From a virus, in IMG/VR virus record IMGVR_UViG_3300036766_001627, positions 1-61,509 of that record: DNA of 61,509 nucleotides. One strand, given 5' to 3'. Each line of letters starts with the position of its first letter. Position 1 is the stretch's first letter. Positions 6,882-61,194 of the stretch are shown here, one piece after another. The position numbers were made by a program, and so were the translations under genes. The notes under the pieces are model-generated. The model was not told the DNA's origin. It saw only the letters and a program-made list of their open reading frames with translations, and searched no databases.

Positions 6882-7781
6882 GTGCCCAACTATCCGAAAC
6901 TTGCAGAGGTGGCGAAGAAGCTCATAGAGAAGTCTGGACGTACAGTCACACTCCGTAGACTGTCGGAGACACCCGCTGATCCAACGAAGCCCTGGCGGAA
7001 TACGAACAGCACAGTCGTTGAGATGAGCATGATCGCAGTCATGTTGGATGGCCAGTATGTTGATGGCGCCGACGACCTTGTTCGTCGCGGGATGCGGGAG
7101 GCCGTGGTCGCGGCGAAGTCCGCCCGATCCGCCCGCAGCAAGCTACTCCATGCAGAAGTAGGTGTGGGGGGCGCCGGCTACAGTGTCGCGGACATCGTAA
7201 CACTTGCGGGCGGCACAAGTACCACTTCGGCCACGATCACTGTGCAGACAGTGGATGGGCTGGGCGCGGTCCTCACGTTCTCCGTGACTGATCCGGGTGT
7301 CTTCGTCACGTTGTCTTCCGCCTTGACTGCGGCTAGTGTTGCGCCGCCCGGAGGAACAGGCCTCGTGCTGAAGAACGCCGTCTTCGCCGCCACGGACCTG
7401 ACGCAGTTCGAGCTTCGTTCCCTCGTCCTCGACGCCGCCGGCGCCAGCTATAGCGTCGATGATATCATCACGCTCGCCGGAGGCGCTGCGATCACGCCCG
7501 CGACAGTGAAGGTACTCTCCGTGGGTGGAGGCGGCTCTATCGGAATATTCAGCATCCTCGATCCGGGCCTCTACCTGACGACGGCCCCCAATCTGACTCA
7601 GGCGGGTGTCGCACCACCCGGTGGAAGTGGGGCCACGTTCAAGTCCGCCACCTTCAGTGTGCTCGATCTGACGCAGTTCGACGAACTCGTGGATGGGACG
7701 GAGACATGGAAGATAGACCAGATCATCCGTGTGGCGCCCGGTTCTGAAGACTTGGTCTGGAGATTCAGGCTAAGGAAGTAA
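6882..7781 (+). CDS. Head closure / tail attachment-like protein with two inserted Gly-rich modules
   Basis: 299 aa from GTG 6882 (GAGG about 7 nt upstream, TAG of previous gene adjacent). About residues 1-85 plus the last 30 (WKIDQIIRVAPGSEDLVW) look like a small head-completion protein. Between them sit two tandem copies (about residues 89-165 and 172-250) of a module with GxGYSxxDIxTLAGG, (A/S)xIxVxxVxG, a DPGxF/Y turn, LTxAxVAPPGGxG and DLTQF. The same module occurs in the tail tube and tip genes. Modules of this kind usually decorate virion surfaces. Confidence 0.55.
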   Translation: MPNYPKLAEVAKKLIEKSGRTVTLRRLSETPADPTKPWRNTNSTVVEMSMIAVMLDGQYVDGADDLVRRGMREAVVAAKSARSARSKLLHAEVGVGGAGYSVADIVTLAGGTSTTSATITVQTVDGLGAVLTFSVTDPGVFVTLSSALTAASVAPPGGTGLVLKNAVFAATDLTQFELRSLVLDAAGASYSVDDIITLAGGAAITPATVKVLSVGGGGSIGIFSILDPGLYLTTAPNLTQAGVAPPGGSGATFKSATFSVLDLTQFDELVDGTETWKIDQIIRVAPGSEDLVWRFRLRK

Positions 7782-8230: not shown

Positions 8231-10084
8231 ATGGCTAAGCTGGTAAAGATCGACAGTAATACTTCAGGCCTCAGATATGCGAAGAACACCTCCATTGGTG
8301 TTCTGCCTACGGCGGCTCTGCAGATTTGGAAGCCCCTCGAACCCAATACATATAGTTCCTTCGGCGGCCAGCTTACTACGGTTGCGCGCCGGCCGATCAA
8401 CCCCTCTCGCCAGCAGAAGAAGGGCGTCGTTACCGACGTGAGTGCCGATTTGGGTTTCTCGACCGATCTTACTCAGACGAACATGCAAGAGCTTCTGGAG
8501 GGATACTTCTACGCTCAGTTCCGTCGGAAGGATGAGCTTGTCGCCAACGGCATCAGCATCGCTTCCGTCACGTCCAGCGGCGACGACTGGCTCATCAATA
8601 ACGCCGAGCTGGACACCCTTGCGCTGAACGCGGCTGGAACCGGCTACAGCGTCAACGACATCATCACCCTCGCCGGCGGAACCTTCAAGACGGCCGCGAC
8701 CATCAGAGTTCTCACCGTCAGCGTAGGCGCCATAGTCACCTTCGCTATCGAGACCCGCGGCGCCTACAGCGTTGCCACAACCTCCTTCACGCAGGGAGCA
8801 GTATCCCCCGCGGGTGGTAGTGGAGCCACCTTCAATACAGGCGTGTTCCGAAAGATATTTAACTTCGATCAGCTCCTCACAGGCGCCCTCGTCTTCGTAA
8901 CTGGTCTCACCGACCCGGCCAACAACGGCATCCATGTTCTCAACGCGGACCTTGCGACACTCACCACGGTCTCCACGAGCGACTCGCTCGTAGACGACAC
9001 GCTGAACGGTAATGCGGCCGCCGACATGGTCGTGGTTGGTTTCGAGTTCACGGCCGGCGACGCCGAGATTGATGCCTCTGGAACACTTCCTTTCTTGAAG
9101 ACAACCACGAAGGACCTACGTGATCTCGGTCTCGTCGAGGGTGAGTGGATATTCATCGGCGGCGATGCCACATTGGAAGCATTCACGACGACCACGAACA
9201 ACGGATTTGCCCGTATCATCAGCATCGCTCAGAATGCCCTTACGTTCGACAAGACCTCCGCCGACATGGTTACAGACAGCGGGGGCAGCCAGACGATCCG
9301 TATCTTCTTCGGGCGTCATCTGCGAAATGAGCAGGGTACAAGCATCGTCCGCAGCACATTCGACTTCGAGCGCAACCTCGGCGCCAACGATGATAGCGAT
9401 CTCACTAAGCAGCAGGCCGAGTACGTCGTCGGTGGCGTGCCGAACGAGTTCGTCTTAAATGTGGCCTCGGTAAGTAAGATCACGGCGGACCTCACCTTCG
9501 CGGGCCTCCACACCGACCATATCGACGAGAACGTGAGTGGCGCTAACACACTTCTCTCGCACGCCGCCGTGACCGCGGGCAGCGCGTTGAACGCCCCGGC
9601 TGTCGTAGAGGCTGATGCTTTCAATACCAGCACGAATATCCCGCGTATCAAGCTGAGTGTCATCACTGCCGGCGTCGAGAATCCGACACCGCTGTTCGCT
9701 TTCGTGACCGACCTGAAGTTCACGATCAAGAACAACCTGGACCCGAACAAGGCGGTCGGGGTCCTCGGCTCCTTCGAGGTGACGGCCGGCCTGTTCGAGG
9801 TTGGTGGATCGCTCACGGCCTACTTCAGCGACGTGGCCGCGGTCCAGGCGGCCCAGGATAACGCCGATGTGACTATCGACTGCCACATTGTTAAGGCGAA
9901 CGCCGGCATCACCCTGGATATCCCGCTGATGAGCCTGGGTAACGCGAAGCCGACAGTTGATATAGATAAGCCGATCACGCTGCCTATCGACATCATCGCG
10001 GCCAGCGGTGCCAAGGTGGATGCGAAACTAGATTATACGGCGAGCTTGACATTTTATGATTATTTGCCAGTCCTTGCTGAGTGA
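8231..10084 (+). CDS. Major tail tube protein with inserted domain(s)
   Basis: 617 aa. N-terminus (LRYAKNTSIGVLPTA...TTVARRPINPSRQQKKGVVTDVSADLGFSTDL) matches phage tail tube proteins of the type with an internal Ig-like or extra insert. Residues about 118-206 are a Gly-rich module (GTGYSVNDIITLAGG ... PAGGSGATF) shared with the gene at 6882 and the tip gene. The protein is much longer than a minimal tube subunit (about 200-300 aa), so several surface domains are likely. It lies between terminator and chaperone genes, as expected. Confidence 0.65.
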   Translation: MAKLVKIDSNTSGLRYAKNTSIGVLPTAALQIWKPLEPNTYSSFGGQLTTVARRPINPSRQQKKGVVTDVSADLGFSTDLTQTNMQELLEGYFYAQFRRKDELVANGISIASVTSSGDDWLINNAELDTLALNAAGTGYSVNDIITLAGGTFKTAATIRVLTVSVGAIVTFAIETRGAYSVATTSFTQGAVSPAGGSGATFNTGVFRKIFNFDQLLTGALVFVTGLTDPANNGIHVLNADLATLTTVSTSDSLVDDTLNGNAAADMVVVGFEFTAGDAEIDASGTLPFLKTTTKDLRDLGLVEGEWIFIGGDATLEAFTTTTNNGFARIISIAQNALTFDKTSADMVTDSGGSQTIRIFFGRHLRNEQGTSIVRSTFDFERNLGANDDSDLTKQQAEYVVGGVPNEFVLNVASVSKITADLTFAGLHTDHIDENVSGANTLLSHAAVTAGSALNAPAVVEADAFNTSTNIPRIKLSVITAGVENPTPLFAFVTDLKFTIKNNLDPNKAVGVLGSFEVTAGLFEVGGSLTAYFSDVAAVQAAQDNADVTIDCHIVKANAGITLDIPLMSLGNAKPTVDIDKPITLPIDIIAASGAKVDAKLDYTASLTFYDYLPVLAE

Positions 10085-15953: not shown

Positions 15954-18900
15954 ATGGACCCGATCACGTTCCTCATTGAAATAGCCATCATCGTCGTGCT
16001 GACCGTGGCACTGGCCATGCTCGCGCCTAAGCCGAAGATCACGGACCAACGCCCAGCATCTCTGGGCGAGTTTCAGTTTCCCACGGCGACAGAGGGTCGG
16101 AGTCTCCCGCTGGTGTGGGGGACGGTGAAAGTTCCAGGAAGTAATGTATGCTGGTATGGAGACCTGAAAGCCGTCCCCATAACGAAGAAGATCAAGACAG
16201 GCCTGTTCTCCAGTAAGGAGCAGGTGCTCGGCTACGAATACTTCCTCGGCATCCAGTTCGCAATCTGCCGCGGGACTGTTGATCTTCTCACGAAGGTCTG
16301 GGTAGACGACAAGCTCGTCTTCAGCGGCAGTGTCGCACACCGGGACTTCGCCCTCATAAACAAGCCATTCCTCTACGGCGGCCCGGATCAGCAGGGTGGT
16401 GTCAAGGGACACCTGAGACTTCTCGCCGGCGACCGGAACCAGGGCATCGACGGATATCTCGACAGTGCCCTCGACCACAGCACCATCCTCACAACGCCCG
16501 CGTACAGGGGCACCTCCTACATCATGTGGTCTAACAACGTATCTAGCGGCACGGGGCATGAGCTGAAGACCGTCACGCTGAACGCGGCAGGGTCCGGCTA
16601 CAGCCCCGGCGACGTTGTCACGCTCGCCGGCGGAACCTCCTCGCCGGCGCCGAAGGTGACGGTACTTACGGTGGGCGCGGGAGGTAGTGTTCTGACGGTC
16701 CTCCTTGGCCCCAACGGACAGGGGATATTTTCCTCCATCACTGGCGCATCAAACCTGACCCAGGCCTCTGTGTCGCCGGCCGGCGGCACCGGCGTCACGT
16801 TCCAGAACTGTACCTACGAAATCCTCGACACCACGGCCAACCGCGGACCCGGCTACCTCGGAAACTCCACGCAGATCAAGGCATTCGCGTTCGAGGTCGT
16901 CCGCATCCCCAACGGTCTCGCCTTGGGTAGTGGCCACGAGACGATCCAGTCGGCTGATGCGAATCCGATGAATGTTATCTACGAGATTCTCACAGACCCC
17001 GACTGGGGCCTGGGCTTCGCCGCCGCCGACATAGATACAACCGTCTTCAGTGCCGCTGCGGACGTGCTGTTCACAGAGGACAACGGGTTCTCGATGATCC
17101 TGGATAGCCCCAGCACGGCCGGCGACCTCATCAAGGAGATCGAGCGTCAGATCGAGGGGATTGTCTTCGTTGACCGCACATCCGGCAAGTGGACGATCAA
17201 GCTAGTCCGGGCTGATTACACGCTCGGTTCCATGCCGGCGATAGATGAGACGAACATCAAGGAGGTGAGGGACTTCGCCCGCTCCTCCTGGCAGAACACC
17301 AAGAACAACATCCAGATTCCCTTCGTGGACCGCGCCAAGAGCTACAAGCAGACCTACGCCATAGCGCAGGATGTGGCAAACATGTCGCTGCAGGGCGGCC
17401 TCATAGCCACCGTCTCCGAGAAGTATCCGGGCGTCATGTCACGCACCAACGCGACCCGTCTTGCCTGGCGTGGCCTTAAGAACTCCGCATACCCATTGGC
17501 AAAAGCCACGTTTGTCCTCGACCGAACCCTCCATTTCCTCAACCCCGGCGACGTGGTTCGGTGGTCAGACACGGCCCTATCCATCACAGATATGGCCATG
17601 CGGATCACCCGCGTCGATCTGGGCCGGCTGGATGACGGCGTCATCACAGTTGATGCGATCCAGGACGTGTTCGCCTTCGAGGAAGCGAGCATGGGAGAGC
17701 CGACAGACACTACCTGGGTCGATCCAGCAACGCAAGTCCCCGTTGATATACCCAGCAACAACCGGGCGATCTTCGAGGCTCCGAAGGCATTCGTAGACCG
17801 TGCCGGAGGCCTGCCTGACCGCATATGGGCAGGCGCCCGCAACCAGGGTGATGGAACGACGGCTTTCGACATCTGGATGAACCCCAACACAACCGCCTAC
17901 AGCCAGGACAGCGAGGTCCAGACTTTCTTCCTCATCGGGAAGCTGACCTCGGCGATCACGCCCGATAACACGCCTGGTGTCTCCGATGTCACAGTCACAC
18001 CTGATCCAGATGTGGAAGGGGATATCCTCGATCAGATCATCTCGCGGACAACCACGGAGATCGGCGTCGGTCTCCTGAACCTCTGCCTTGTGGACAACGA
18101 GTTCATCGGCTTCACGACAGCGGTTGATAGTGGTGGAAACATCGTGCTGACGGACTGCTATCGCGGGCTGATGGACACAGTACCTGCGTCCCACGCGATC
18201 AACGCGAAAGTCTACTTCATCAGCATGGGGGGCAACATCTCCGCCGGCAATTTCGTGTCTGGCGACTCGGTGGACGTGAAGCTCTTGACGCGAGGCCCCT
18301 ACGGGACGCTCGATATAGGTGATGCTACGGCCACGACTATCGTTATGGCTGATAGGTATCGGAAGCCATATCCCCCGAACACCATCTACGACAGCAACTT
18401 CGATCCTGAAGCCACACCCACGGCGAACTGGGAGAGTCCGTGGCCGGTGGATGTGAACTTCGTGTTTGGATCAACCACGCACAAAGGAATCGCTGTTGGA
18501 GTCATCACAAAGTTTTTTGGAACAACAAACGAGGTGAACTCGTCTCTTCGTTCTTTCAACTTTGTTCCCGTCATGTTAATATCAGATGATGAGATCAGCT
18601 ACGGCACACAGGAGCAGCTATACCAGCTCTATGACACAACCGGAACAGCATTCCTAATAAATTTCAACTTCAGCAATAGCTGGACCAGCGGCCAGGTCCT
18701 TAACATAGAGAGAACGAGGATTCTGAGAAATGTTCTCGGCACCGACGCCGGTGAGGAGGGTAGCGCAGCCCTCCCTACCAGTATGAGGATGTTGGTCTCA
18801 ACTCGTCATACTCGCACCCAGGATGGGGCTTCATATCAGGCAGATCAGGACATCCAGTGGGACTTCCCGGTCACATTCACAGAGCTGTCGGGGCTGTTCA

Positions 18901-19187
18901 TCTTCCTAGTGACGGCCATCAATGTGATCTCCGCGACCTACACGGCAACAAATACGGGAACCCACACTGTAACCCGGAGCTGGGATTCTCTGTCGGGCAC
19001 AAACACGCTCCAGGTGAGCGTCAATGGGGCTGCTTTCGCCACCGTTATCACCGGCACGGCAACCAGTGGTACCTTCTCGGCGACATCGGGCCAGACGATC
19101 CGCTTCAAGTCCACGGCTGGAACCAGCATCTACCTCTACAAGCTCAGCTTCAGCGGAACAGACCTGGCCTTCGGAATTATAGACTAA
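15954..19187 (+). CDS. Tail tip / central fibre protein (J-like, GTA TIM-barrel type)
   Basis: 1077 aa. Starts with a hydrophobic helix (FLIEIAIIVVLTVALAML), then SLGEFQFPTATEGRSLPLVWGTV, a feature of the baseplate/tip protein group related to gene transfer agent host-specificity and lambda J proteins. A Gly-rich module (about residues 200-292) is inserted early. The middle (DETNIKEVRDFARSSWQNTKNNIQIPF, later PGDVVRWSD) resembles the Phage-tail_3 region. The C-terminal 350 residues are beta-rich (TATNTGTHTVTRSWDS). Bases 16877-17282 were copied into the gene at 21342. Confidence 0.75.
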   Translation: MDPITFLIEIAIIVVLTVALAMLAPKPKITDQRPASLGEFQFPTATEGRSLPLVWGTVKVPGSNVCWYGDLKAVPITKKIKTGLFSSKEQVLGYEYFLGIQFAICRGTVDLLTKVWVDDKLVFSGSVAHRDFALINKPFLYGGPDQQGGVKGHLRLLAGDRNQGIDGYLDSALDHSTILTTPAYRGTSYIMWSNNVSSGTGHELKTVTLNAAGSGYSPGDVVTLAGGTSSPAPKVTVLTVGAGGSVLTVLLGPNGQGIFSSITGASNLTQASVSPAGGTGVTFQNCTYEILDTTANRGPGYLGNSTQIKAFAFEVVRIPNGLALGSGHETIQSADANPMNVIYEILTDPDWGLGFAAADIDTTVFSAAADVLFTEDNGFSMILDSPSTAGDLIKEIERQIEGIVFVDRTSGKWTIKLVRADYTLGSMPAIDETNIKEVRDFARSSWQNTKNNIQIPFVDRAKSYKQTYAIAQDVANMSLQGGLIATVSEKYPGVMSRTNATRLAWRGLKNSAYPLAKATFVLDRTLHFLNPGDVVRWSDTALSITDMAMRITRVDLGRLDDGVITVDAIQDVFAFEEASMGEPTDTTWVDPATQVPVDIPSNNRAIFEAPKAFVDRAGGLPDRIWAGARNQGDGTTAFDIWMNPNTTAYSQDSEVQTFFLIGKLTSAITPDNTPGVSDVTVTPDPDVEGDILDQIISRTTTEIGVGLLNLCLVDNEFIGFTTAVDSGGNIVLTDCYRGLMDTVPASHAINAKVYFISMGGNISAGNFVSGDSVDVKLLTRGPYGTLDIGDATATTIVMADRYRKPYPPNTIYDSNFDPEATPTANWESPWPVDVNFVFGSTTHKGIAVGVITKFFGTTNEVNSSLRSFNFVPVMLISDDEISYGTQEQLYQLYDTTGTAFLINFNFSNSWTSGQVLNIERTRILRNVLGTDAGEEGSAALPTSMRMLVSTRHTRTQDGASYQADQDIQWDFPVTFTELSGLFIFLVTAINVISATYTATNTGTHTVTRSWDSLSGTNTLQVSVNGAAFATVITGTATSGTFSATSGQTIRFKSTAGTSIYLYKLSFSGTDLAFGIID
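16554..16833 (+). repeat. Gly-rich module copy inside tip gene
   Basis: Encodes GSGYSPGDVVTLAGGT ... LTQASVSPAGGTGVTF. Homologous protein modules lie at about 7146-7380, 7395-7635 and 8580-8850. Four copies in three virion genes. Confidence 0.7.
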
Positions 19188-19209
19188 AATTTGCAAAGAT
19201 GCCTATAAT
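19180..19209 (+). promoter_or_regulatory. Candidate sigma70-type promoter
   Basis: TAGACT, 18-nt spacer, TATAAT (19204-19209). The -35 is weak. The ATG of the next gene follows 8 nt after the -10, so the transcript would be almost leaderless. Confidence 0.45.
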
Positions 19210-19217
19210 GGTGTATC

Positions 19218-19493
19218 ATGGAAAAGTCTGAGGAAAAACCGGAGCGTCTGAGTCACGACGACATCGAAGAGATCGCCACCAGGGTCGTTCGGCGGGTGTT
19301 TCTGGAAATGGGCATCGACGCGAGCACGCCGCTGGCAGCTCAGCAGGACTTCGCCTTCATGCGGAATCTAAGACGTGGTTTCGAGAGCACGAAGCGAACA
19401 GCCCGGACCACGGCTGTGGGAATCTTCGTTACGACGATCCTGACGTTGCTTCTATGGGCGATAAAACAGGCCATCAAGGGAGAGATGAAGTGA
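19218..19493 (+). CDS. Small membrane protein, possible holin/lysis accessory
   Basis: 91 aa. Acidic N-terminus with HDDIEEIATRVVRRVFLEMGID, a basic middle, and one C-terminal transmembrane helix (AVGIFVTTILTLLLWAI) followed by K/E. Resembles the phage proteins grouped as DUF6127-like that have a DDIEEIA..V.....LGID start and one TM helix. Sits right after the tail tip gene. A holin role is possible but unproven. Stop overlaps the next GTG start. Confidence 0.5.
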   Translation: MEKSEEKPERLSHDDIEEIATRVVRRVFLEMGIDASTPLAAQQDFAFMRNLRRGFESTKRTARTTAVGIFVTTILTLLLWAIKQAIKGEMK

Positions 19494-21097
19494 AGACATC
19501 AGAGAAATTCGCCACGGATGCTGTTGATGTACAGATCATGGAAGCCATAGATGTAGTCGGCACGGGACTCACTGACCTGTCCAGAGAGACAGGACTGAGT
19601 CGTTCTACGATCTACTACCGCCTCAAGAAGATGGGCGCCGATAAGCCGATCAGCGCAGGCTCTATCCGCGGCACGGCGGAGAAGTCCGCAGAGCTACCGA
19701 AGCCAGGCAGAATCAAGCGGTACATCCTCACCTCCGCCCAGAACAACACGAAGATACACGAGGCGGTCTGGGAGAGCCTCCTCACGCTGGCGAAATACTA
19801 CGACGCCGCGATCCTGATCGGCACCTTCAGCTACAACCAGAACGCCTTCGGGTCTATGGCTACGAAGCGGGGCACGGAGAAGCACGATAAAGACCTGTGG
19901 TACGACGAGCGGCTCAAACCGTACTTCGCGGATGAGCGGATAAGGCTAGCCGAGGGCCTCGTATGGTGTGGCGAGATGAATATCATGCCCACGGCCGAGA
20001 ACCCGCTGAGTGGTCTGGAAACCTACAGCGGCCGTAAGAGTGCCATCGTGCCGCACGCGAAGATCGCCATGCAGTCCGTCGCCGCCATGAAGGGCGAGGG
20101 AGTGAAGTTCAACTACACGACAGGCACTGTCACGCAGATGAACTACATCCAGAAGAAGGCCGGTCAGAAGGGCGAGCACCACCACACTTACGGTGGACTG
20201 CTTGTCGAGGTGAATGCGGACGGAGCCTGGTTCGTGCGGCAGATCGAGGCGACGAAGGAGGGGGTTATATGCGACTTGGACATCCGCGTCGAGGGCACCA
20301 AGCTCACACGGAAGAACAGGGTTGAAGCGATAACCTGGGGTGACATCCACGCAGCCTGCGTGGATGAGAACGTCACGACCTCGGCTCTCGGAGCCGATGG
20401 CATGATGGACACTCTCAAACCTCGCTACTCGTTCATCCACGATATCTTCGAGGGTGTGTCTTTCAGCCACCACACGGCTGACAACTGCCACGCGAAATTC
20501 TCAGCTCACCTGCGTGGTTACGACTCGGTACAGTGTGAAGTTAATACGACCGCTCATGTTCTCAGTTCTTATCTACGGAAGCTCACTCAAACTGTAGTCG
20601 TAGACAGCAACCACGACAGCGCCTGGCTTGCTCGCTGGTTGCGTGAGCACGACTACCGACGTGATCCGGTGAATGCGGTGTTCTTCCTGCAGATGCAACT
20701 CGCCTTCTACGAAGCGATGGAGAGGAAAGAGAAGCTGAACCTGACGAGGTGGGCACTCCAGATTTTTCCTCGACAGCTCGGAGAGGTGAAGTTCCTCGGG
20801 CCAGACGAGTCCTTCCGCACCTGTGGCGGCCTTATCGAGAACGGACAACACGGGCACCTCGGGCCGAACGGCGCCCGCGGTACGGCCCAGAACCTCAACA
20901 GGGTTGGCCGCAGGGCGAATACGGCCCACAGTCACAGCGCGGCCATCGTGAACGGCCTATATGTCGCCGGCACGAGCAGCGATCTGGATATGGGCTACAA
21001 TGTCGGCCCCTCGTCTTGGTCCCACAGCCACATCATCACATACCCTACTGGCAAGAGAACCATCATTACTGTCTGGGATGGGCGGTGGAGAGCATGA
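19490..21097 (+). CDS. T5 A1-like protein (HTH plus possible metallophosphoesterase-like domain)
   Basis: 535 aa from GTG 19490 (GTGA overlap). Residues about 27-55 form a helix-turn-helix (GLTDLSRETGLSRSTIYYRL). The body contains candidate metal-binding motifs: KGEHHHTYGGLL, VVVDSNHDSAWLARWL (NHD like the calcineurin family) and, near the end, TAHSHSAAI and SSWSHSHI. The C-terminus resembles what I recall of the T5 pre-early A1 protein family linked to host DNA degradation. Family recall is uncertain. Its location after the tail genes, not in an early region, is unusual for such a role. Confidence 0.45.
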   Translation: MKTSEKFATDAVDVQIMEAIDVVGTGLTDLSRETGLSRSTIYYRLKKMGADKPISAGSIRGTAEKSAELPKPGRIKRYILTSAQNNTKIHEAVWESLLTLAKYYDAAILIGTFSYNQNAFGSMATKRGTEKHDKDLWYDERLKPYFADERIRLAEGLVWCGEMNIMPTAENPLSGLETYSGRKSAIVPHAKIAMQSVAAMKGEGVKFNYTTGTVTQMNYIQKKAGQKGEHHHTYGGLLVEVNADGAWFVRQIEATKEGVICDLDIRVEGTKLTRKNRVEAITWGDIHAACVDENVTTSALGADGMMDTLKPRYSFIHDIFEGVSFSHHTADNCHAKFSAHLRGYDSVQCEVNTTAHVLSSYLRKLTQTVVVDSNHDSAWLARWLREHDYRRDPVNAVFFLQMQLAFYEAMERKEKLNLTRWALQIFPRQLGEVKFLGPDESFRTCGGLIENGQHGHLGPNGARGTAQNLNRVGRRANTAHSHSAAIVNGLYVAGTSSDLDMGYNVGPSSWSHSHIITYPTGKRTIITVWDGRWRA

Positions 21098-21288
21098 AGA
21101 TAGAGAAGCCACAGAACCCAGATAGAGAAGCGGGGATCATCTCCCTTCTGACGGCACGAGAGCAAAAACCGGCTGATCCCAGTTGGAACAGTTGGGTTGA
21201 AGCCTGGACGAAGTGTGTTTTTGAAAATCATCGAAAGATGAGAATTTTAACTCCAGATGGTTGCCCAGAACCAGTTTATGGGTTATAA
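21094..21288 (+). CDS. Hypothetical protein (64 aa)
   Basis: ATG 21094 overlaps the preceding stop (ATGA). Sequence begins MKIEKPQNPDREAGIISLL and has a Trp-rich centre (WNSWVEAWTKCVFENHRKM). A promoter (21261-21289) overlaps its 3' end. No family recognised. Confidence 0.55.
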   Translation: MKIEKPQNPDREAGIISLLTAREQKPADPSWNSWVEAWTKCVFENHRKMRILTPDGCPEPVYGL

Positions 21289-21289
21289 T
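21261..21289 (+). promoter_or_regulatory. Sigma70-type promoter before chimeric gene
   Basis: TTGCCC, 17-nt spacer, TATAAT. An ATG 5 nt after the -10 (21295) opens a 22-codon reading frame that ends at 21363, inside the start of the gene at 21342, so a leader peptide with translational coupling is possible. Confidence 0.65.
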
Positions 21290-21341
21290 GTAATATGAGC
21301 TTCAGTGAAGTGGTCTTTTTATCTTCCATGAAAGGAAATCT

Positions 21342-21917
21342 ATGTTCTGGATCATCGTTCTAGTCGCGGTCGTGTTTGTCGTCGGAGTTCTGTTCGCCCG
21401 CAAGAACAAGGCATTCGCGTTCGAGGTCGTCCGCATCCCCAACGGTCTCGCCTTGGGTAGTGGCCACGAGACGATCCAGTCGGCTGATGCGAATCCGATG
21501 AATGTCCTCTACGAGATTCTCACAGACCCCGACAGGGGACTCGGTTTCGCCGCCGCTGATATCGACACGACCGCCTTCGCGGCCGCTGCGGATGTGCTCT
21601 GGTCGGAAGACAACGGGTTCTCGATGATCCTGGATAGCCACAGCACGGCCGGCGACCTCATCAAAGAGATCGAGCGCCAGATCGAGGGAATTGTCTTCGT
21701 TGACCGCACAACTGGCAAGTGGACGATCAAGCTAGTCCGGGCGGATTATACACTCGGTTCCATGCCGGCGATAGATGAGACGAACATCAAGGAGGTGAGG
21801 GACTTCGCCCGCAAGAACAAGGCGAAGGCCAACGCTATCGCCGGCGCCGCCGATTCTGCGAAGGCCGCGGTGTCGAATGAGTACAATAAGTTGACAACGA
21901 AGCCCCCGGTCAAGTAA
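21342..21917 (+). CDS. Chimeric small membrane protein carrying a copied tail-tip segment
   Basis: 191 aa, SD AAAGGA. Residues 1-17 are a TM helix (FWIIVLVAVVFVVGVLF) followed by ARKNKA. Residues about 24-157 match the tip protein (gene at 15954) without gaps (406 bp, about 30 base differences by eye, no indels). The C-terminus KANAIAGAADSAKAAVSNEYNKL resumes after a second ARKNKA. Removing the insert leaves a plausible 54-aa membrane protein. The insertion is a multiple of three (411 bp) and is bordered by a 20-bp direct repeat. The function of either form is unknown; the host gene could be a lysis or superinfection-exclusion factor. Confidence 0.75.
   Translation: MFWIIVLVAVVFVVGVLFARKNKAFAFEVVRIPNGLALGSGHETIQSADANPMNVLYEILTDPDRGLGFAAADIDTTAFAAAADVLWSEDNGFSMILDSHSTAGDLIKEIERQIEGIVFVDRTTGKWTIKLVRADYTLGSMPAIDETNIKEVRDFARKNKAKANAIAGAADSAKAAVSNEYNKLTTKPPVK
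21393..21823 (+). repeat. 20-bp direct repeats bordering the captured tip-gene fragment
   Basis: TTCGCCCGCAAGAACAAGGC occurs at 21393-21412 and 21804-21823. The donor segment 16877-17282 carries CAAGGC at its left end and TTCGCCCGC at its right end, so microhomology of 6 and 9 bases with the recipient explains both joints. Confidence 0.85.
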
Positions 21918-21920
21918 ACT
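21891..21920 (+). promoter_or_regulatory. Sigma70-type promoter before 32-aa gene
   Basis: TTGACA, 18-nt spacer, TAAACT, overlapping the 3' end of the chimeric gene. Followed by a strong SD (AAAGGAGG) for the GTG at 21949, so this transcript has a normal leader. Confidence 0.6.
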
Positions 21921-21948
21921 GGCTCATGCTCCTAGAAAGGAGGACACA

Positions 21949-22047
21949 GTGGCAAGCAAGAAACAACTGGCCGCCCGCGCAAAGTTCATTGCGATGGTCA
22001 AGGCCAAGAACCACGGCAAGAGTGGTAAGATGAAGAAGGGCAAGTAG
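21949..22047 (+). CDS. Small Lys-rich protein (32 aa)
   Basis: GTG start with AAAGGAGG 6 nt upstream, stop TAG 22045-22047. Reads MASKKQLAARAKFIAMVKAK then NHGKSGKMKKGK. Tiny basic proteins with this ASKKQLAARAKFxxMVKAK pattern recur in environmental phages; function unknown. Flanked by its own promoter and a terminator, i.e. a monocistronic unit. Confidence 0.65.
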   Translation: MASKKQLAARAKFIAMVKAKNHGKSGKMKKGK

Positions 22048-22088
22048 GTGGGGTCTTTGTTCGATCTAGGGAACAGGCCCCACTTTTT
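22048..22088 (+). terminator. Rho-independent terminator
   Basis: GTGGGG(T)C...TGTTC pairs with GAACAGGCCCCAC, followed by TTTTT. Starts on the base after the preceding stop. Confidence 0.75.
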
Positions 22089-22115
22089 CTTGGAGAGAGC
22101 TTGTGGTCTATAAAT

Positions 22116-22188
22116 GCGCTGATAGTGTAGAGGCTGCACGTCCCCCTATCCAGGTGGAAGGAGAAGGTTCGATCCCTATCTCAGCGCT
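22116..22188 (+). tRNA. Degenerate tRNA-like element
   Basis: 73 nt, the same length as the intact tRNA at 25042. A perfect 7-bp acceptor stem (GCGCTGA/TCAGCGC), a D stem GTGT/GCAC, and GGTTCGA in the T-loop position. The anticodon stem (TCCCC/GGTGG) has a mismatch, the loop CTATCCA gives an odd ATC anticodon with C at 37, and the T stem is mismatched with one extra base. Probably a decayed tRNA or tRNA mimic. Confidence 0.4.
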
Positions 22189-22213
22189 TGATCTTAGGTT
22201 TGTAGAGATCAAC

Positions 22214-22762
22214 ATGCGAGAAGCAAAGGTTCTGAACGAGACCTGGCACAGCATGTTGCCGAGAACCGATCTTGGTAATCTTCTCTGTGGGAGCATCTCT
22301 GTCGCATACGCTGCGGAGTACGGGGGCAAATTTCTTGGTGTCGCCATCTTTAGTCAGCCCATCGTCAGGAGCTTATGTGATGGGCGAACAATTGAGTTGA
22401 GAAGACTGGCTTTGGGGCCGGATGCCCCCAAAAATTCTGCCTCCAGGATGATGGCAGTTACGGCCAGACTTGTGAAGCGGAAGTATAGGTGGATCAACAA
22501 GATCGTCAGCTACCAAGCCGTAGACGTTCATGCGGGAACCATCTACAGAGCGGCGGGATGGACTCCCGTGGGAAAAGTTGTTCCTGCTCGTCCCCAGAGG
22601 ATGAAAGGCAGCAAGCAGAGAGCCACAGGACCTCTCCAGACACACAGCCGAAAACTACGGTGGGAGAAGATCATAGGAACGGATGCCTATGTTCCTGAAG
22701 AGGGAGAGACAACAGAGAGAATCAGAAATCTTCTTCTGACTTCAAACGGAAAGAACGCATGA
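22214..22762 (+). CDS. Mom-like DNA modification protein (GNAT-related)
   Basis: 182 aa from ATG 22214; the frame is open upstream through the tRNA-like element but that part is not protein-like. Core motifs ELRRLALGPDAPKNSASRM, INKIVSYQAVDVHAGTIYRAAGW and a FLGVAIFSQPI strand match the phage Mu Mom family, which hypermodifies adenines and protects DNA from restriction. The C-terminal 50 residues are basic and may contact DNA. Precedes a helicase gene. Weak SD. Confidence 0.75.
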   Translation: MREAKVLNETWHSMLPRTDLGNLLCGSISVAYAAEYGGKFLGVAIFSQPIVRSLCDGRTIELRRLALGPDAPKNSASRMMAVTARLVKRKYRWINKIVSYQAVDVHAGTIYRAAGWTPVGKVVPARPQRMKGSKQRATGPLQTHSRKLRWEKIIGTDAYVPEEGETTERIRNLLLTSNGKNA

Positions 22763-22947
22763 AGAAGCTGAACACAAACCTCGTCTTCCACGGCCTCCCT
22801 GTCTTCCTGGAGGTGCCGGACGACTTCGTCTCAGAGCAGGCGATCCTCCGTGCTTTCCACGCGCACCTCGACCGGGTAGAGAATGTATTTCTGAAGAAAG
22901 AGATTGTGTCTGGTACTTTCCCTCGCCTGGCCGAGGACAGTAGATGA
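22759..22947 (+). CDS. Hypothetical protein (62 aa)
   Basis: ATG 22759 overlaps the Mom-like stop (ATGA), and its end overlaps the helicase start (ATGA at 22944). Contains FHGLPVFLEVPDDFVSEQAIL and a charged helix. No family recognised; tight coupling suggests a helper of one of its neighbours. Confidence 0.6.
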   Translation: MKKLNTNLVFHGLPVFLEVPDDFVSEQAILRAFHAHLDRVENVFLKKEIVSGTFPRLAEDSR

Positions 22948-24413
22948 GCATCACATTCAAGACGAAGCCTTTTCCACACCAACTCGCCGAGTTCGAGCTG
23001 AGCCGAAACCTGCCTGCTCGTGCCCTCTTCTTCGAGATGGGTCTCGGGAAATCATTCTGCGCAATTGTAAACGCCGCACACCTCTACGCGGAGGGTAAGA
23101 TCACAGGGATGCTCGTCGTCGCACCCAGCGGTGTCCACCGGAACTGGGTAGACGCGGAGATACCGGCGCACATGCCCGATGATACGATGGCAGATACCAT
23201 CGCTCTCGCCTACAATACGAACAAGGCGGATACGCGGGCACATCAGGCGGCTGTCCACAACCTGACCACGAGAGCGGGTTTCTCTGTCCTCTCCATGAGC
23301 TACGACGGCCTCCTCACCGCCCGCGGCAAGCAGACAGTCTGGGACTTCCTCCGGCGCCGGCCCTCCATGTACGTTGTCGATGAGGGCCGGCGGATCAAGA
23401 ACCCGAAGGCGAAACGGACGAAAGCCGTCATCGGGTCAGGCAAATTTGCCCCATACCGGCGGCTTCTTAATGGGACCCCGATCAGCAACGGGCCTTTTGA
23501 TCTCTACAGCCAGATGCTGTTCCTGGATGCCGATTTCTGGAAACCCCTAGGCGTCAGCAGCGAGTGGGGATTCCGCAACTACTTCGGTTCTTTCAAGACG
23601 AGCTATGTCAGGGTGGCTGGAGGCGCCATGAGGGAGTTCAAGGAACTCATAGAGTACCGGAACCTCGATATCCTCAAGACGTATCTAGACAAGGCGGGGA
23701 AGCGGCTGACGAAGGAGGAGGTACTTGATCTCCCGCCCAAGTTGTACTCAACAATCAAGTTCACCCTCGCGCCGGCGCAGCAGGCAGCATACGATCAGAT
23801 GGTAGAAGAATACAGAACGGTCCTCGCCTCCGGCGAGGAGGTTGATGCCGAACTGGCCATCGTGCGGATGCTACGTCTGCAACAGATCACGTCCGGCTAC
23901 CTGCCCACGCCGGACGGCCGGGAACCCTACGAGGACATCGGTGCCACAAACCCCCGCATCACAACCATACTCGACCTGTGCGAAGATGTCCCGCACAGCG
24001 CGATCATCTGGTGCCGGTTTAGACGGACGATAGATAAGCTGTGCGCAGCCCTCGGCACAGATGCTGTGCGGTACGACGGGCTTATCACTGACGAAGATGA
24101 GGCGGCGGAGGCTGTGCGGGCCTTCCAGGCAGGCGAGAAGAAGTTCTTCGTATCAAATCCGGCCAAAGGAGGCGAAGGACTCACGCTCCACCGGGCGAGA
24201 ACAGTGATCCGGGCCGAGAACAGCTACAACCTGGCCGAACGCCTCCAATCCGATGACCGGGCGCACCGGATCGGGCAGAAGTTCAGCGTCCAGTACATAG
24301 ATGTGTGCGGTGCCGACACAGTCGATGAGCGGGTTGCCGAGTGTCTCCGTAAGAAGCAGGATGTGGCCAACATCATCACGGGAGACCGGAAGTTGACAAG
24401 CTGGCTTCTGTGA
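22944..24413 (+). CDS. SNF2-type (SF2) DNA helicase
   Basis: 489 aa. Motif Q-like FPHQLAEFEL, Walker A EMGLGKS, motif Ia VVAPSGVHRNW, motif II VVDEGRRIKNPKAKRTKA (DEGR in place of DEGH/DEAH), motif III LLNGTPISNGPFDLYSQMLFLD, motif V GGEGLTLHRA and motif VI QSDDRAHRIGQ. This is a complete compact SNF2 helicase, common in phage replication blocks, probably remodelling or unwinding forks. A promoter for the next gene lies in its last codons. Confidence 0.88.
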   Translation: MSITFKTKPFPHQLAEFELSRNLPARALFFEMGLGKSFCAIVNAAHLYAEGKITGMLVVAPSGVHRNWVDAEIPAHMPDDTMADTIALAYNTNKADTRAHQAAVHNLTTRAGFSVLSMSYDGLLTARGKQTVWDFLRRRPSMYVVDEGRRIKNPKAKRTKAVIGSGKFAPYRRLLNGTPISNGPFDLYSQMLFLDADFWKPLGVSSEWGFRNYFGSFKTSYVRVAGGAMREFKELIEYRNLDILKTYLDKAGKRLTKEEVLDLPPKLYSTIKFTLAPAQQAAYDQMVEEYRTVLASGEEVDAELAIVRMLRLQQITSGYLPTPDGREPYEDIGATNPRITTILDLCEDVPHSAIIWCRFRRTIDKLCAALGTDAVRYDGLITDEDEAAEAVRAFQAGEKKFFVSNPAKGGEGLTLHRARTVIRAENSYNLAERLQSDDRAHRIGQKFSVQYIDVCGADTVDERVAECLRKKQDVANIITGDRKLTSWLL

Positions 24414-24421
24414 GGTAGGAT
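24393..24421 (+). promoter_or_regulatory. Promoter fused to ATG (leaderless type)
   Basis: TTGACA, 17-nt spacer, TAGGAT, then 6 nt to ATG 24428. Overlaps the helicase 3' end. Confidence 0.65.
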
Positions 24422-24427
24422 TCATCA

Positions 24428-25024
24428 ATGGCTAAGCCACACACAGAGGACAACCAGGAACCAAACCCAGCCTTCAAGGTCCTCACCGATCTCGTCGAGC
24501 GGGCGAAGAACCACTCCGAGAACGTCGAGCGTCTGGAGGAGGAGCTGAGGCTGGAGGAGCAGCGGCTTCTCCTCATCGTCGGCGGATTCAACGAGGTGGG
24601 CGCGCTGCCCGCGAAGATGCGGGAGCTTGGCCTGTCCTCCTTCACGACGAAAGACGGTCTCTGTATCGAGCTGGAGCGGAAGCTGAAGGCGAGTATCAGC
24701 GAAGCGAGGAAGCCCGAAGCCTTCGCCTGGCTGGAGGAGAACGGACACGCAGCCCTAATAAAGCGCGAGGTAAGTGTCTCGTTCAACCGGGAGCAGGCAG
24801 AGGAGGCCGTGCTGCTCCTGGATCAACTCCGCGGCAAGTTCCCCGGCGTCAACATGAAACAATCCGTCCATGCGAGTACCCTGGAAGCGTGGGTCCGTCA
24901 GATGCGGAAGGACGGAGAAGACATACCTTGCGAAACCTTCGGCATCAGGGAGTTCGAGGTCGCCAAGAGCGACGGGATAGGAAGGAAGAGATCGAAGAAG
25001 AATTTGACAGAACACCCGTTCTGA
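24428..25024 (+). CDS. Conserved phage protein, unknown function (possible recombination/nuclease-inhibitor role)
   Basis: 198 aa, no SD but a promoter ending 6 nt upstream (leaderless). N-terminal coiled coil (about residues 20-50, ERLEEELRLEEQRLLL), then a domain with LSSFTTKDGLCIELERKLKA, AFAWLEENGHAALIKREVSV and VHASTLEAWVRQM, a pattern that recurs in many phages beside SSB-like genes. Ends in LTEHPF, a short hydrophobic tip like SSB tails. Role not known. Confidence 0.6.
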   Translation: MAKPHTEDNQEPNPAFKVLTDLVERAKNHSENVERLEEELRLEEQRLLLIVGGFNEVGALPAKMRELGLSSFTTKDGLCIELERKLKASISEARKPEAFAWLEENGHAALIKREVSVSFNREQAEEAVLLLDQLRGKFPGVNMKQSVHASTLEAWVRQMRKDGEDIPCETFGIREFEVAKSDGIGRKRSKKNLTEHPF

Positions 25025-25032
25025 TGTATACT
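25004..25032 (+). promoter_or_regulatory. Consensus sigma70 promoter for tRNA-Met
   Basis: Perfect TTGACA, 17-nt spacer, TATACT. The -10 ends 9 nt before the tRNA 5' end. Confidence 0.85.
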
Positions 25033-25041
25033 AGGAAAACC

Positions 25042-25114
25042 TGCGGGGTAGATCAGTTGGTAGATCGCAAGGCTCATAACCTTGAAGTCGCTGGTTCGAG
25101 TCCAGCCCCCGCAT
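25042..25114 (+). tRNA. tRNA-Met (CAT anticodon)
   Basis: Full cloverleaf: acceptor TGCGGGG/CCCCGCA, D stem GATC/GATC with AGTTGGTA loop, anticodon stem CAAGG/CCTTG with loop CTCATAA, T stem GCTGG/CCAGC with TTCGAGT. CCA is not encoded. The paired 1-72 position argues against an initiator tRNA; it may be elongator Met or lysidine-modified Ile2. Confidence 0.95.
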
Positions 25115-25277
25115 CTAGGCCGGTAGCCTCATGCGAAGAGGCACTATCCCGCTTCAAAAAAGAAGCGTGTTAGTTAAGAAGGACTCGCAACCTCCCGGTC
25201 TTCTTATGCCCCACCGACATTCTCGGTGGCATCCGGGCACACCGGCGGATGTAAATGGTCCGGCACAAGGAATACTT

Positions 25278-26165
25278 ATGAGTGACAACAAGTCTCAGAT
25301 CGTCAAGGCGTCCGACTACGGCAGCTTCTCCGGCGTAGGCCTGGAGAACTTCACGGCATCTGATGTGACGACCCCGTTCCTCTACCTGCTCGGCGCCAAG
25401 AGTCCGCAGTGTGAGGTGGGCAACCCGAAGTACGTAGAGGGTGCTACGGCGGGAATGCTAATGAACGGCGCGAGCCAGGAACTCTATCCCGCCTTCGTCC
25501 GCGCCGGAGCACCGCTTCCGCAGGGCCTAATCTTCCAGCCCGTGGTGATGAAACACGAGTACGAGGAGAGGACTCCCAAGATCGGCGACCAACAAGGAAA
25601 CCACCTTGGTAATCACGACGCGGCCGACGCCCTCGTACTCGACGCCATCGCCGACTTCCGGCAGCGAACAGGCAAGAAGTTCAGCCCGCGGTACCCCCTC
25701 GGCAACGGAAACGAGATCAACGAGACCTACCTTCTTATCGGCTTCATCCACAGCACCGAGGATATCGCGGCCCAGACAGCATTGGGTGTCGGCACGCCCA
25801 TCGCTATCACATTCTCCAGCACCCGGATCAAGCCGCTGAAGGACTACATATACCAGGTCTTCAGCATCGGCACCGACCCGACGAAGGCACCACCGCTATT
25901 CGCCCACCGGCTCCGGCTCCGCACGGTCCTTGAATCCAGGACTTTGAACGGCAAACCGATAACGAGCCACAACTACGTTATCAAGCCGCTCATCGAAGGC
26001 AATGTGCTGAAGAGCCTCATCCCGCTGAACGACGAATCTGGCAACACGCACCCGCTCATCGCGGCCGGCCGGGACTTGAACGCGGCCTTCTCCGCGGGTT
26101 CTGTGAAGGTGGGTGTCGCGGACACCAAGCACGACGACGAAGTCAGTACGAAACCTCCGTTCTAG
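25278..26165 (+). CDS. Putative ssDNA-binding protein-like replication factor
   Basis: 295 aa from ATG 25278 (AAGGA 6 nt upstream; upstream in-frame ATG at 25131 is not protein-like and abuts the tRNA). Contains FTASDVTTPFLYLLGAKSPQC, LYPAFVRAGAPLPQGLIFQPV, GTPIAITFSSTRIKPL and an acidic then hydrophobic tail KHDDEVSTKPPF, reminiscent of SSB C-terminal tips. Proteins of this pattern are common in phage replication modules; SSB function is inferred. Confidence 0.45.
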   Translation: MSDNKSQIVKASDYGSFSGVGLENFTASDVTTPFLYLLGAKSPQCEVGNPKYVEGATAGMLMNGASQELYPAFVRAGAPLPQGLIFQPVVMKHEYEERTPKIGDQQGNHLGNHDAADALVLDAIADFRQRTGKKFSPRYPLGNGNEINETYLLIGFIHSTEDIAAQTALGVGTPIAITFSSTRIKPLKDYIYQVFSIGTDPTKAPPLFAHRLRLRTVLESRTLNGKPITSHNYVIKPLIEGNVLKSLIPLNDESGNTHPLIAAGRDLNAAFSAGSVKVGVADTKHDDEVSTKPPF

Positions 26166-32429: not shown

Positions 32430-32815
32430 GGTTTGGTTCGGTTCGGTATGGTAGGGCCGGTTCGGGTGTGATAAGGTGGGGTTAGTCTTTTTTTATACAT
32501 CTCTCTGCAATCGAAAGGTTGCAGAGAGGTTTTCAGTCTATGGTGTGGTTCGGTGAGGTGTGGTGAGGTGCGGTGCGGTTTGGTGAGGTGTGGTTATCCA
32601 TCTCTCTGCAATCGAAAGGTTGCAGAGAGGTTTTCAGTCTATGGTGTGGTTCGGTGAGGTGCGGTGCGGTTCGGTTTGGTCTGGTTATTCATCTCTCTGC
32701 AATCGAAAGGTTGCAGAGAGGTTTTCAGTCTATGGTGTGGTTCGGTGTGGTTTGGTGTGGTTCGGTGTGGTTATTCATCTCTCTGCAATCGAAAGGTTGC
32801 AGAGAGATTTTCAAA
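32430..32815 (+). repeat. Four-hairpin GT-rich repeat array (candidate origin or RNA element)
   Basis: No credible gene in this stretch. A 28-nt perfect hairpin (CTCTCTGCAA / TTGCAGAGAG, 8-nt loop TCGAAAGG) recurs at 32501-32528, 32602-32629, 32693-32720 and 32779-32806, spaced 101, 91 and 86 nt. Each copy is followed by TTTTC and, in copies 1-3, by AGTCTATGGTGTGGTTCGGTG, then a variable run of GGT/GCGGT/GGTTCGGT words almost free of cytosine pairs (potential two-tier G-quadruplex). A similar GT-rich run precedes copy 1. Frames that read through it are artefacts. Confidence 0.9.
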
Positions 32816-32859
32816 CAAAAGAAGAAAACATAAATTACCACTCTTCGCAACTTGTCACG

Positions 32860-41096: not shown

Positions 41097-43166
41097 ATGG
41101 CCATACCTTCAGTCTCTCTCCTGCCCAGAACCATCACCGGACCTCCAGGGCTTCCCGGCCGGCCCGGTAGAGATGGAGCAGCCGGAGAACCCGGCACGGC
41201 TGGAGCACCGGGTCTCAACGGTTTGCCCGGCGCCAAGGGGGAATCGGGTGCCGACGGCCTCACATGGCGCGGCGAATACAGCGGTCGAGTTCCCTACACC
41301 CCCGGCGATGTCGTGTTCTTCCACGGATCGAGTTTCGTCTGCACGCATGACGTATTGGGCGCAATTCCCACGACGGCGAACTACTGGCAGGTGCTCGCCC
41401 GCGAGGGCGCTGCCGGAGCTGCCGGAGCTGCCGGAGCTGCCGGAGCTGCCGGAGCTGCCGGAGCTGCCGGAGCTGCCGGAGCTGCCGGAGCTGCCGGAGC
41501 TGCCGGAGCTGCCGGAGCTGCCGGAGCTGCCGGAGCTGCCGGTTTTGAGTTCATCTACAGCAACGATATCACGGGTGCCGATCCTGGCAGCGGCAAGCTC
41601 GCCTTCGACAGCCTGACACCCGCGGCGATCACGTTCTCAAGCATCTCAGGAACCGACAACCTCGCGCAGGTCATCTACAGTGAACTCATCACCTGGGACG
41701 ATTCTACCTCTTCGATAAAGGGAACGCTCATCATCTCTGCGAAGAGCGATCCCACGAAGTTCCTGATCTTCCAGGTTATTGGGCTGGTCGAGAACACAAC
41801 ATATGCACAGATTTACTTCAGCCTGCTCGCCGCATCTGGCACAATGTTCGTCGATGGAGATGAGGTGTTCGCACAGTTTGCGCGAGCCGGCGATGCCGGT
41901 ATCGGATTCCGTGAGTTGCTAAACTGGGATGCAGGCAGTAACTTTCTAATCAACGACGTTGTGAGCTATCTCGGAAGTAGCTGGGTGGCCATCGCGGACA
42001 ACCTGAATGCGATTCCCGATCAAGACCCCCTGTCTTGGCAGCCTTTTGCTTTGGGAAATGGTCCGGGATTCCCGTTCTTCTCCACCTTTTCAAACACCTC
42101 CGCCACCGATCCTGGCTCTGGTTTCTACAAGTTCAACAGTAATACGGCAAACACAGCGGTCACGAAGCTCTTCATCTCGAAGACTGCTGCCAACACCCAG
42201 TCAATCGGCACGCAGATTCTCACATGGGACGACTCGACAAGCACAGTCCGCGGATACCTGAAGTTTGAGATGATTGGAACGCAAAACATCTGGGCCATCT
42301 ATAGCGTCTCAGGTGCATCCACGGACCACGGAACATGGGTAGAAATCCCGCTCACCTATATTACGAGTTTTATCGGCAGCGGGATGATTACAGGAGATGG
42401 AGCATCCTTCGACATCAACTTCAGCCGAACGGGAGATAAAGGAACAACGGGCGCAACGGGTGCAACGGGCACGAATGGCACGAATGGCACGAATGGGACC
42501 AACGGAACCGATGGCACTAGCTTCGTCTGGAGAGGCCTCTACAGTGCCGGAACCACATATGCTGTTGATGATGTTGTTGAGTTCAGCGGTTCGAGTTTTA
42601 TAAGTTTGCAGGCAGCAAACATAGGCAACCAACCAGATATATCCCCGACTTTCTGGGACCTTCTGGCTCAGAAGGGCACGAATGGCACGAATGGCACGAA
42701 TGGCACGAATGGCACGAATGGCACGAATGGCACGAATGGCATCAGCGCCGGTCTCACTTATACCTACAGCACAACCACCACGGCCAGTGACCCCGGAAGT
42801 GGTGTCTTCCGCTTCGACTCCGCGACCCTCGCGTCAGTTACGAAGCTCTACATCTCAGAGACAGACGGGGACACGAACGCCGTCGCGGCCGTGCTCGCAA
42901 CCTTCGACGACGGCACCAGCACTATCCGCGGCCGCATCCGGGTGGTGAAGAAGAGCGATCCCACGAAGTTCTTCATCGCGGACATCACCGGCACTCTCAC
43001 GGACAACGGCACTTGGGACACATTCGATCTCACGTTCGTCGGCGCGAGCACGCTGGCCGACACGGATATCGTGACCATGATCTTCATCCCAAAGGGTGAT
43101 AGCGGTGACGCGAGCACACAATTGACCCATCCGCAGGTGATGAGCAGGATCAGTATAGGAATTTAA
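41097..43166 (+). CDS. Collagen-like tail fibre
   Basis: 689 aa. N-terminal Gly-X-Y collagen stretch (GPPGLPGRPGRDGAAGEPG), a pure GAA repeat (about residues 104-149) and later GTN repeats (GTNGTNGTNG, two blocks), which form triple helices. Between them are three copies of a small domain of the form Y..(G/N/D)DVV...GSS(F/W)....N..P.....W..LA, common in phage fibres and carbohydrate-binding proteins, and three beta domains with TATSDPGSG-like openings (ASDPGSGVFRFDSATLASVT). Likely the receptor-contact fibre; the repeats allow length change by slippage. Confidence 0.8.
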   Translation: MAIPSVSLLPRTITGPPGLPGRPGRDGAAGEPGTAGAPGLNGLPGAKGESGADGLTWRGEYSGRVPYTPGDVVFFHGSSFVCTHDVLGAIPTTANYWQVLAREGAAGAAGAAGAAGAAGAAGAAGAAGAAGAAGAAGAAGAAGAAGAAGFEFIYSNDITGADPGSGKLAFDSLTPAAITFSSISGTDNLAQVIYSELITWDDSTSSIKGTLIISAKSDPTKFLIFQVIGLVENTTYAQIYFSLLAASGTMFVDGDEVFAQFARAGDAGIGFRELLNWDAGSNFLINDVVSYLGSSWVAIADNLNAIPDQDPLSWQPFALGNGPGFPFFSTFSNTSATDPGSGFYKFNSNTANTAVTKLFISKTAANTQSIGTQILTWDDSTSTVRGYLKFEMIGTQNIWAIYSVSGASTDHGTWVEIPLTYITSFIGSGMITGDGASFDINFSRTGDKGTTGATGATGTNGTNGTNGTNGTDGTSFVWRGLYSAGTTYAVDDVVEFSGSSFISLQAANIGNQPDISPTFWDLLAQKGTNGTNGTNGTNGTNGTNGTNGISAGLTYTYSTTTTASDPGSGVFRFDSATLASVTKLYISETDGDTNAVAAVLATFDDGTSTIRGRIRVVKKSDPTKFFIADITGTLTDNGTWDTFDLTFVGASTLADTDIVTMIFIPKGDSGDASTQLTHPQVMSRISIGI
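41408..41542 (+). repeat. 9-bp tandem repeat, GAA codons
   Basis: About fifteen exact copies of GCTGCCGGA encoding Gly-Ala-Ala. Exactness predicts recent expansion and possible assembly collapse. Confidence 0.95.
42675..42738 (+). repeat. 9-bp tandem repeat, GTN codons
   Basis: Seven copies of GGCACGAAT encoding Gly-Thr-Asn; a shorter related block lies at 42472-42512. Confidence 0.95.
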
Positions 43167-43525
43167 TGCTCACGCTCGATACCATCACCCGCAGCCTGAT
43201 GGTGAGCCTGAAAGTGGCAGTCACTACCAACCAGCTCCACGTAACTGTCTCATACGCTGACCACACGAACACTACTTTTGTGCCCAAAACTACACTAATT
43301 CTGACCAACAACACTGCCGACGTTGTCGTCATGCCCGCTCCGCCGGCTAGTACGCAGCGTCAGATGAAGTACATCAGTGTCTTCAACGCGGACACGAAAT
43401 CCGCCACTGTGACGATCAAGATCGACGACAGTGGTGTCAAGAAGACGCAGGTTATTGCTACTCTTGCCGTTGGCCATTCTCTGGTGTATAATGACCATGT
43501 GGGGTGGACCGTGCTGGCACTATGA
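43166..43525 (+). CDS. Fibre-associated paralogue A (N-domain only)
   Basis: 119 aa, TAATG overlap with the fibre stop. Shares with the three following genes the N-domain LDT.TRSL.V.L....TT.L.V...YAD.T.T.F.P......N......AP..STQRQ.KYI.VFN.DT..ATV.I....G. It lacks their C-terminal domain. Its 3' end contains TTGCCG-N17-TATAAT (43464-43492), a possible internal promoter. Likely a fibre-tip or adaptor subunit. Confidence 0.65.
   Translation: MLTLDTITRSLMVSLKVAVTTNQLHVTVSYADHTNTTFVPKTTLILTNNTADVVVMPAPPASTQRQMKYISVFNADTKSATVTIKIDDSGVKKTQVIATLAVGHSLVYNDHVGWTVLAL
43464..43492 (+). promoter_or_regulatory. Possible internal promoter in fibre cluster
   Basis: TTGCCG, 17-nt spacer, TATAAT. A GTG 6 nt after the -10 would give only a 7-codon leader ending at the next start. 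May be fortuitous. Confidence 0.35.
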
Positions 43526-45317: not shown

Positions 45318-45323
45318 GAGAAT

Positions 45324-54141: not shown

Positions 54142-54143
54142 GC

Positions 54144-55431: not shown

Positions 55432-55470
55432 CAACGCACGGCCAATTGTTGGCCGTGCGTTGTCGTTTTT
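55432..55470 (+). terminator. Strong rho-independent terminator
   Basis: Perfect 14-bp stem CAACGCACGGCCAA / TTGGCCGTGCGTTG, 3-nt loop, then TCGTTTTT. Confidence 0.9.
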
Positions 55471-55479
55471 ATTTCGCTG

Positions 55480-61193: not shown

Positions 61194-61194
61194 T

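Follow-up and report, generated by a model that had tools for sequence, protein, structure and literature searches.

A 406-base stretch of a central tail hub gene, either the phage's own or that of a close relative, is present twice in the viral genome studied here, the second time in frame inside the gene of a small transmembrane (TM) protein. The genome is an uncultivated virus contig from IMG/VR, and the window, by which we mean the whole stretch of DNA that was analysed, is 61,509 bases long. Judged from the sequence, origin of the second copy by microhomology-mediated duplication is well supported; the resulting fusion may act in exclusion or interfere with tail assembly, but such a role lacks support. 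We favour, with a probability of about 0.6, a recent duplication of the template-switch type into a dispensable, moron-like gene, tolerated since it fell in frame and with no selected role yet.

The hub segment, its copy and the joints

The window carries a siphophage-type gene set (portal, major head protein, tail terminator, tape measure, tail assembly proteins, central tail hub and terminase). The donor gene matched the phrog_1101 profile with an E value of 2e-188 and also matched PF13550; it is a central tail hub of the family of lambda gpJ, JBD30 gp53, chi and T5 pb3. The genes 3' of the hub are, in order, a 91-aa membrane protein, a phrog_1745 'DNA transfer protein', the fusion ORF, a Mom-like gene and a helicase. 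Coordinates of the features are given in Table 1.

Table 1. Positions of the donor, the copy, the joints and the fusion gene in the window
Feature	Position	Strand	Basis
Donor gene, central tail hub / tip protein, 1077 aa	15954..19187	+	phrog_1101, PF13550
Donor segment, hub residues 309-443	16877..17282	+	alignment with copy
Promoter-like site TTGCCC-17-TATAAT, 5' of fusion gene	21261..21289	+	consensus match only
Fusion gene, 191 aa: TM helix 2-18, RKNK, hub segment 23-157, C-terminal helix 160-185	21342..21917	+	
Recipient gene, 5' part (TM segment), through first 20-base repeat	21342..21412	+	
20-base direct repeat, left copy; ends in microhomology CAAGGC (21407-21412)	21393..21412	+	
Captured hub-segment copy, including 6- and 9-base microhomologies	21407..21812	+	alignment
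20-base direct repeat, right copy; begins with microhomology TTCGCCCGC (21804-21812)	21804..21823	+	
Recipient gene, 3' part, Ala/Lys-rich, predicted helix	21804..21917	+	

The copy aligned with the donor segment without gaps, 375 of the 406 bases being identical (92.4%). There is no difference in the first 99 or the last 60 bases; the 31 that exist all fall within 21506-21752, with 20 of them in one 75-base stretch. Divergence is 20% in the 103 bases from 21507 to 21609, 6% in the next 144 bases and 0-1% at the ends; among 20,000 random placements of the differences, none reached both clean ends together and none reached the cluster. The differences comprise 17 transitions and 14 transversions, mostly at third positions, and they change 26 codons, 18 synonymously and 8 non-synonymously. 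A DGR template/variable repeat was rejected as an explanation of the pair, as the differences were not confined to adenines.

At its two joints the copy shares CAAGGC (6 bases) and TTCGCCCGC (9 bases) with the recipient. The 20-base sequence TTCGCCCGCAAGAACAAGGC, which belongs to the recipient, occurs at 21393 and again at 21804, 411 bases apart; the donor segment begins with the last six bases of this repeat and ends with its first nine. The chance of such microhomology at a random joint is p = 0.0018 for at least 6 bases and p = 0.00006 for at least 9, so that both joints exceed chance, as expected of a microhomology-mediated duplicative insertion. As the insert measures 411 bases, the reading frame is kept on both sides, and the hub segment is translated in the frame that it has in the hub gene. 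When the 411 bases are removed, the gene reads MFWIIVLVAVVFVVGVLFARKNKAKANAIAGAADSAKAAVSNEYNKLTTKPPVK, a protein of 54 residues that has a single TM helix and a tail rich in Ala and Lys. The preliminary description had proposed that a fragment of the tip gene was captured in frame, with 6- and 9-base microhomologies and 20-base repeats at the joints, from an ungapped match of about 92%, identical ends of about 95 and 60 bases and clustered changes, many of them synonymous; our counts bear it out on all these points, the first clean end proving slightly longer.

Several further features of the genome were recorded. The N terminus of the hub (window 15954-16200) carries a fused TM segment matching phrog_1180, which forms a small gene of its own in PaMx25, S0112 and AXL_1 and lies directly before the hub in phages like PaMx25 and AXL_1. 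A domain of about 80 residues, 'GSGYS..D..TLAGG', occurs four times in three ORFs of the structural region (7170-7385, 7428-7661, 8624-8833 and 16578-16823), one of these copies lying within the tip gene just 5' of the captured segment; in relatives that have the domain, it is mostly found about 5 kb upstream of the hub segment and not within the hub. With this GSGY-type domain, the genome that carries the hub-segment copy shows the in-frame spread of a domain for a second time. The Mom-like DNA modification protein directly 3' of the fusion gene (22103-22762) matched PF25680 (E 1e-12) and phrog_1384 (E 3e-20). At 22121-22190, the stretch GCGCTGA...TCAGCGC with a GTTCGATCC motif looked tRNA-like by eye but drew no ARAGORN or Rfam call, and Rfam over 18500-25500 returned one tRNA and no other match. 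Positions 1-79 equal 61431-61509, with further diverged copies at a spacing of 156 bases (within 1-188 and 61119-61509), which makes a circular or terminally redundant record probable. Four near-identical hairpins CTCTCTGCAATCGAAAGGTTGCAGAGAG are spaced about 90-100 bases apart in TG-rich DNA (32488-32819), arrays of an 8-base unit of the CCCCGACT / CCCCGGCG type lie 1.3 kb apart at 54122-54230 and 55464-55604, and four tandem paralogous ORFs with a common N-terminal domain (43166-46262) stand behind collagen-like 9-base repeats (41.4-42.8 kb).

The predicted fusion protein and its divergence from the hub

Residues 23-159 of the fusion matched phrog_1101 with an E value of 8e-40, which places them in the hub family by sequence. 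Sequence profiles of the captured segment matched the PDB entries 8vjh (E 3e-25) and 8rk3 (E 3e-18), and Foldseek with the captured subdomain found 8vjh, 8rk3, 8iyk and 7zqp, placing it in the hubs of chi, JBD30, lambda and T5. AlphaFold2 modelled the fusion as a TM helix (residues 2-18), a compact alpha/beta core (residues 41-130, pLDDT 90-96) and a C-terminal helix. In the AlphaFold2 model of hub residues 1-819 (mean pLDDT 82), the captured segment opens with strand 311-317 and closes with strand 435-443. These edge strands are unformed in the fusion model, so the cut holds one whole small subdomain together with two orphan strands.

Most of the near-invariant hub residues are kept in the fusion (R31, N51, E58, E89, G92, L131, R133 and R157), but W65, a Trp in 71 of 72 homologues, has become Arg. 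The known central tail hubs (lambda gpJ, T5 pb3, JBD30 gp53 and the chi minor tail protein) are like the donor protein and the captured subdomain, whereas the fusion carries 135 of 1077 hub residues and lacks the remaining hub domains. It would be unable to serve as a hub because these domains and the conserved Trp are missing. The TM helix has no K or R before it and R20, K21 and K23 after it; by the positive-inside rule the N terminus is predicted to lie outside and the C terminus inside, with the hub piece on the cytoplasmic side. The ORF is preceded by a fair Shine-Dalgarno sequence, AAAGGA.

Between copy and donor, dN was 0.03 and dS 0.26-0.33, giving an omega of about 0.1. Eight residues are changed, against about 22 expected from 31 random substitutions, and none of 20,000 simulations gave 8 or fewer; most of the differences therefore accumulated under purifying selection, although the figure does not tell where they did so. 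The dN/dS between the copies, which the preliminary description had named as a check, is thus low, but it is no proof of selection on the fusion: the clustering, and the fact that the more usual residue stands at some sites in the fusion and at others in the tip, suggest that tip alleles exchanged a tract before or after the capture. At two sites the state of the fusion is commoner among homologues than that of the tip, Ala78 (4 v 0) and Thr124 (50 v 11), which indicates that the tip has also changed, as expected of allelic divergence. W65R and P100H look fusion-specific and point to relaxed constraint: the His at position 100 is rare (1 of 72 homologues), Pro being found in the tip and in 15 of the 72.

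The hub segment and the recipient gene in related phages

Homologues of the hub segment were found in 356 phage records, at one place in each. From IMG/VR, the best 80 of 395 stretches were taken, and bacterial genome contigs added another 18. Each of the 112 loci fetched has the segment once, within an ORF of hub length unless the end of the contig cuts the ORF. Neither the fusion nor a second copy was seen among the 356 phage records and the 112 hub-bearing loci, which speaks against a fused form that is ancestral and widespread, the outcome that would have overturned the preliminary description. On this comparison the duplication looks unique to the present virus.

The order hub, small membrane gene, phrog_1745 gene, helicase is common to several relatives. 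In those relatives with the same order that were found first, the slot 3' of the phrog_1745 gene is occupied by other small ORFs, none of them recognisable as the 54-aa gene, as expected for a dispensable accessory gene. No related locus of the 54-aa gene was found, the relatives available being distant: tblastn gave no match (its low-complexity filter may mask the query), unmasked phmmer against all ORFs of 117 loci gave nothing significant, and two degenerate DNA patterns also had no match. A phrog_3879 match (E 0.005) was rejected, since that family also matches 10 of 14 unrelated control genomes. The 54-residue TM precursor proposed earlier is therefore plausible when the 411 bases are removed, but the search for it in related phages came back empty and the unfused gene is inferred from the joint alone. 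A search of IMG/VR found no close relative of the full tip protein, and with the nearest hubs about 55% identical in the segment, the relatives can neither date the event nor show an empty site.

Other dispersed repeats of at least 100 bases were present in only 4 of the 117 loci. Those of locus L106 are paralogous methyltransferases, the pair of L064 lies outside recognisable conserved genes and recurs in L065, and that of L021 is a local repeat array. No similar capture was shown among the dispersed repeats of the 117 loci, where the pairs of L106 and L064 were inspected, and searches of an open-access library found no description of a membrane-tethered fragment of a tail hub.

Origin and possible roles of the fusion

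On the simplest path, a strand growing during phage DNA synthesis would have switched from the small gene to the hub gene at CAAGGC, continued there for 406 bases as far as TTCGCCCGC, and re-entered the small gene at its own upstream TTCGCCCGC, whereby 20 bases would have been copied again. By chance the insert had a length and frame that kept the small gene open. For the clustered differences an allelic origin is the best reading, the donor and the present tip gene presumably differing by a recombination tract. The product, if made, would be an inner-membrane protein with a folded hub subdomain on its cytoplasmic face. Known microhomology-mediated or template-switch duplications likewise have short homologies at both joints and a few duplicated bases of the recipient; here the event lies within one phage genome, in frame and between two coding sequences. 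The capture is a clean example of an already known type of event.

In favour of a recent, tolerated insertion are the exact joints, the 20-base repeat, the microhomology far above chance and the single copy of the hub segment elsewhere. Against it stand the deficit of residue changes and the low omega, the lack of any stop or frameshift, the retention of the promoter-like site and the Shine-Dalgarno sequence, and the fact that the unfused gene has never been seen. If the changes post-date the capture, strong purifying selection has acted on the fusion, which is then functional.

Such a function could be that of a selected inhibitor, in which the membrane-tethered subdomain binds hub partners (upper baseplate protein, tape measure) and, as decoy or dominant negative, hinders related co-infecting phages in assembling their tails or in DNA entry. 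What was captured is modelled with confidence as a compact subdomain, and the hub of JBD30 makes extensive contacts with the upper baseplate protein (PMC11445458). Blocking of tail assembly is an effective anti-phage strategy, used by the prophage-encoded Tab (PMC10884400) and by the prophage-encoded Tai, which acts through protein J and whose phage escape mutants map to protein J (PMC11364771). Interference with tail assembly would be the idea shared with the fusion, conceivable for a hub subdomain that faces the cytoplasm; however, PADLOC showed no sequence relation of the fusion to Tab or Tai, and these are not described in the two papers as copies of tail genes. The gene also has its own promoter-like site, adjoins helicase and DNA-modification genes and shows few non-synonymous changes. 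HK97 gp15 and P22 SieA are membrane superinfection-exclusion morons. The recipient resembles them as a small membrane protein in an accessory position with a possible promoter of its own, but homology of these proteins to the fusion was not detected: PADLOC found no homologue of the fusion, and the sole profile match, to the 'Sie-like' phrog_8545 (E 0.009 with the 54-aa form), was rejected as compositional, since a control with shuffled tail scored E 0.006 and control genomes behaved likewise. The predicted C-in topology faces away from incoming tips and argues against an outward-facing decoy, the phage's own tail assembly would also be endangered, the near-invariant Trp is lost, and the fusion was found in no other phage. 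The decoy or exclusion role put forward in the preliminary description thus found no positive evidence, and we consider a selected inhibitor unlikely. The bolder proposal, that a copied subdomain of the phage's own hub has turned into a membrane-tethered inhibitor of related phages' tails (or an exchangeable spare cassette), the first self-derived tail decoy, is quite doubtful.

The mosaic of identical ends and a 20% divergent middle, with mostly synonymous changes, would also suit a silent sequence archive, whose identical ends of 99 and 60 bases let the middle be swapped with the tip gene by gene conversion, and some states of the fusion are the commoner ones in the hub family. Transfer of the Trp to Arg change would, however, probably damage the hub, the hub core is not the receptor-binding part, and a simple crossover of the two copies, which are in direct orientation, would remove 4.5 kb; we regard an archive as very unlikely. 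Little probability likewise attaches to a chimera of assembly or amplification, even though the record is an uncultivated contig and chimeric amplification products also have joints with microhomology. The 20-base repeats at the joints are shorter than the usual assembly k-mers, and the copy differs from the tip on the same contig by 31 mostly synonymous changes and is in frame on both sides. An old functional fusion, the 191-aa protein being an established component of virion or membrane with copies partly homogenised by gene conversion, would explain the purifying-type divergence and the identical ends, but with no second copy in any relative and near-perfect joints still readable it is highly improbable.

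The tolerated duplication that we prefer offers a rare snapshot of a phage gene soon after its birth, with donor, recipient, both joints and the frame all readable. If the fusion proves active, it would show how a phage can make a tail inhibitor from its own tail gene. If it is inactive, it documents microhomology-mediated duplication as a process that feeds domain shuffling in the structural regions of phages, to be compared with the fourfold GSGY-type domain of the same genome.
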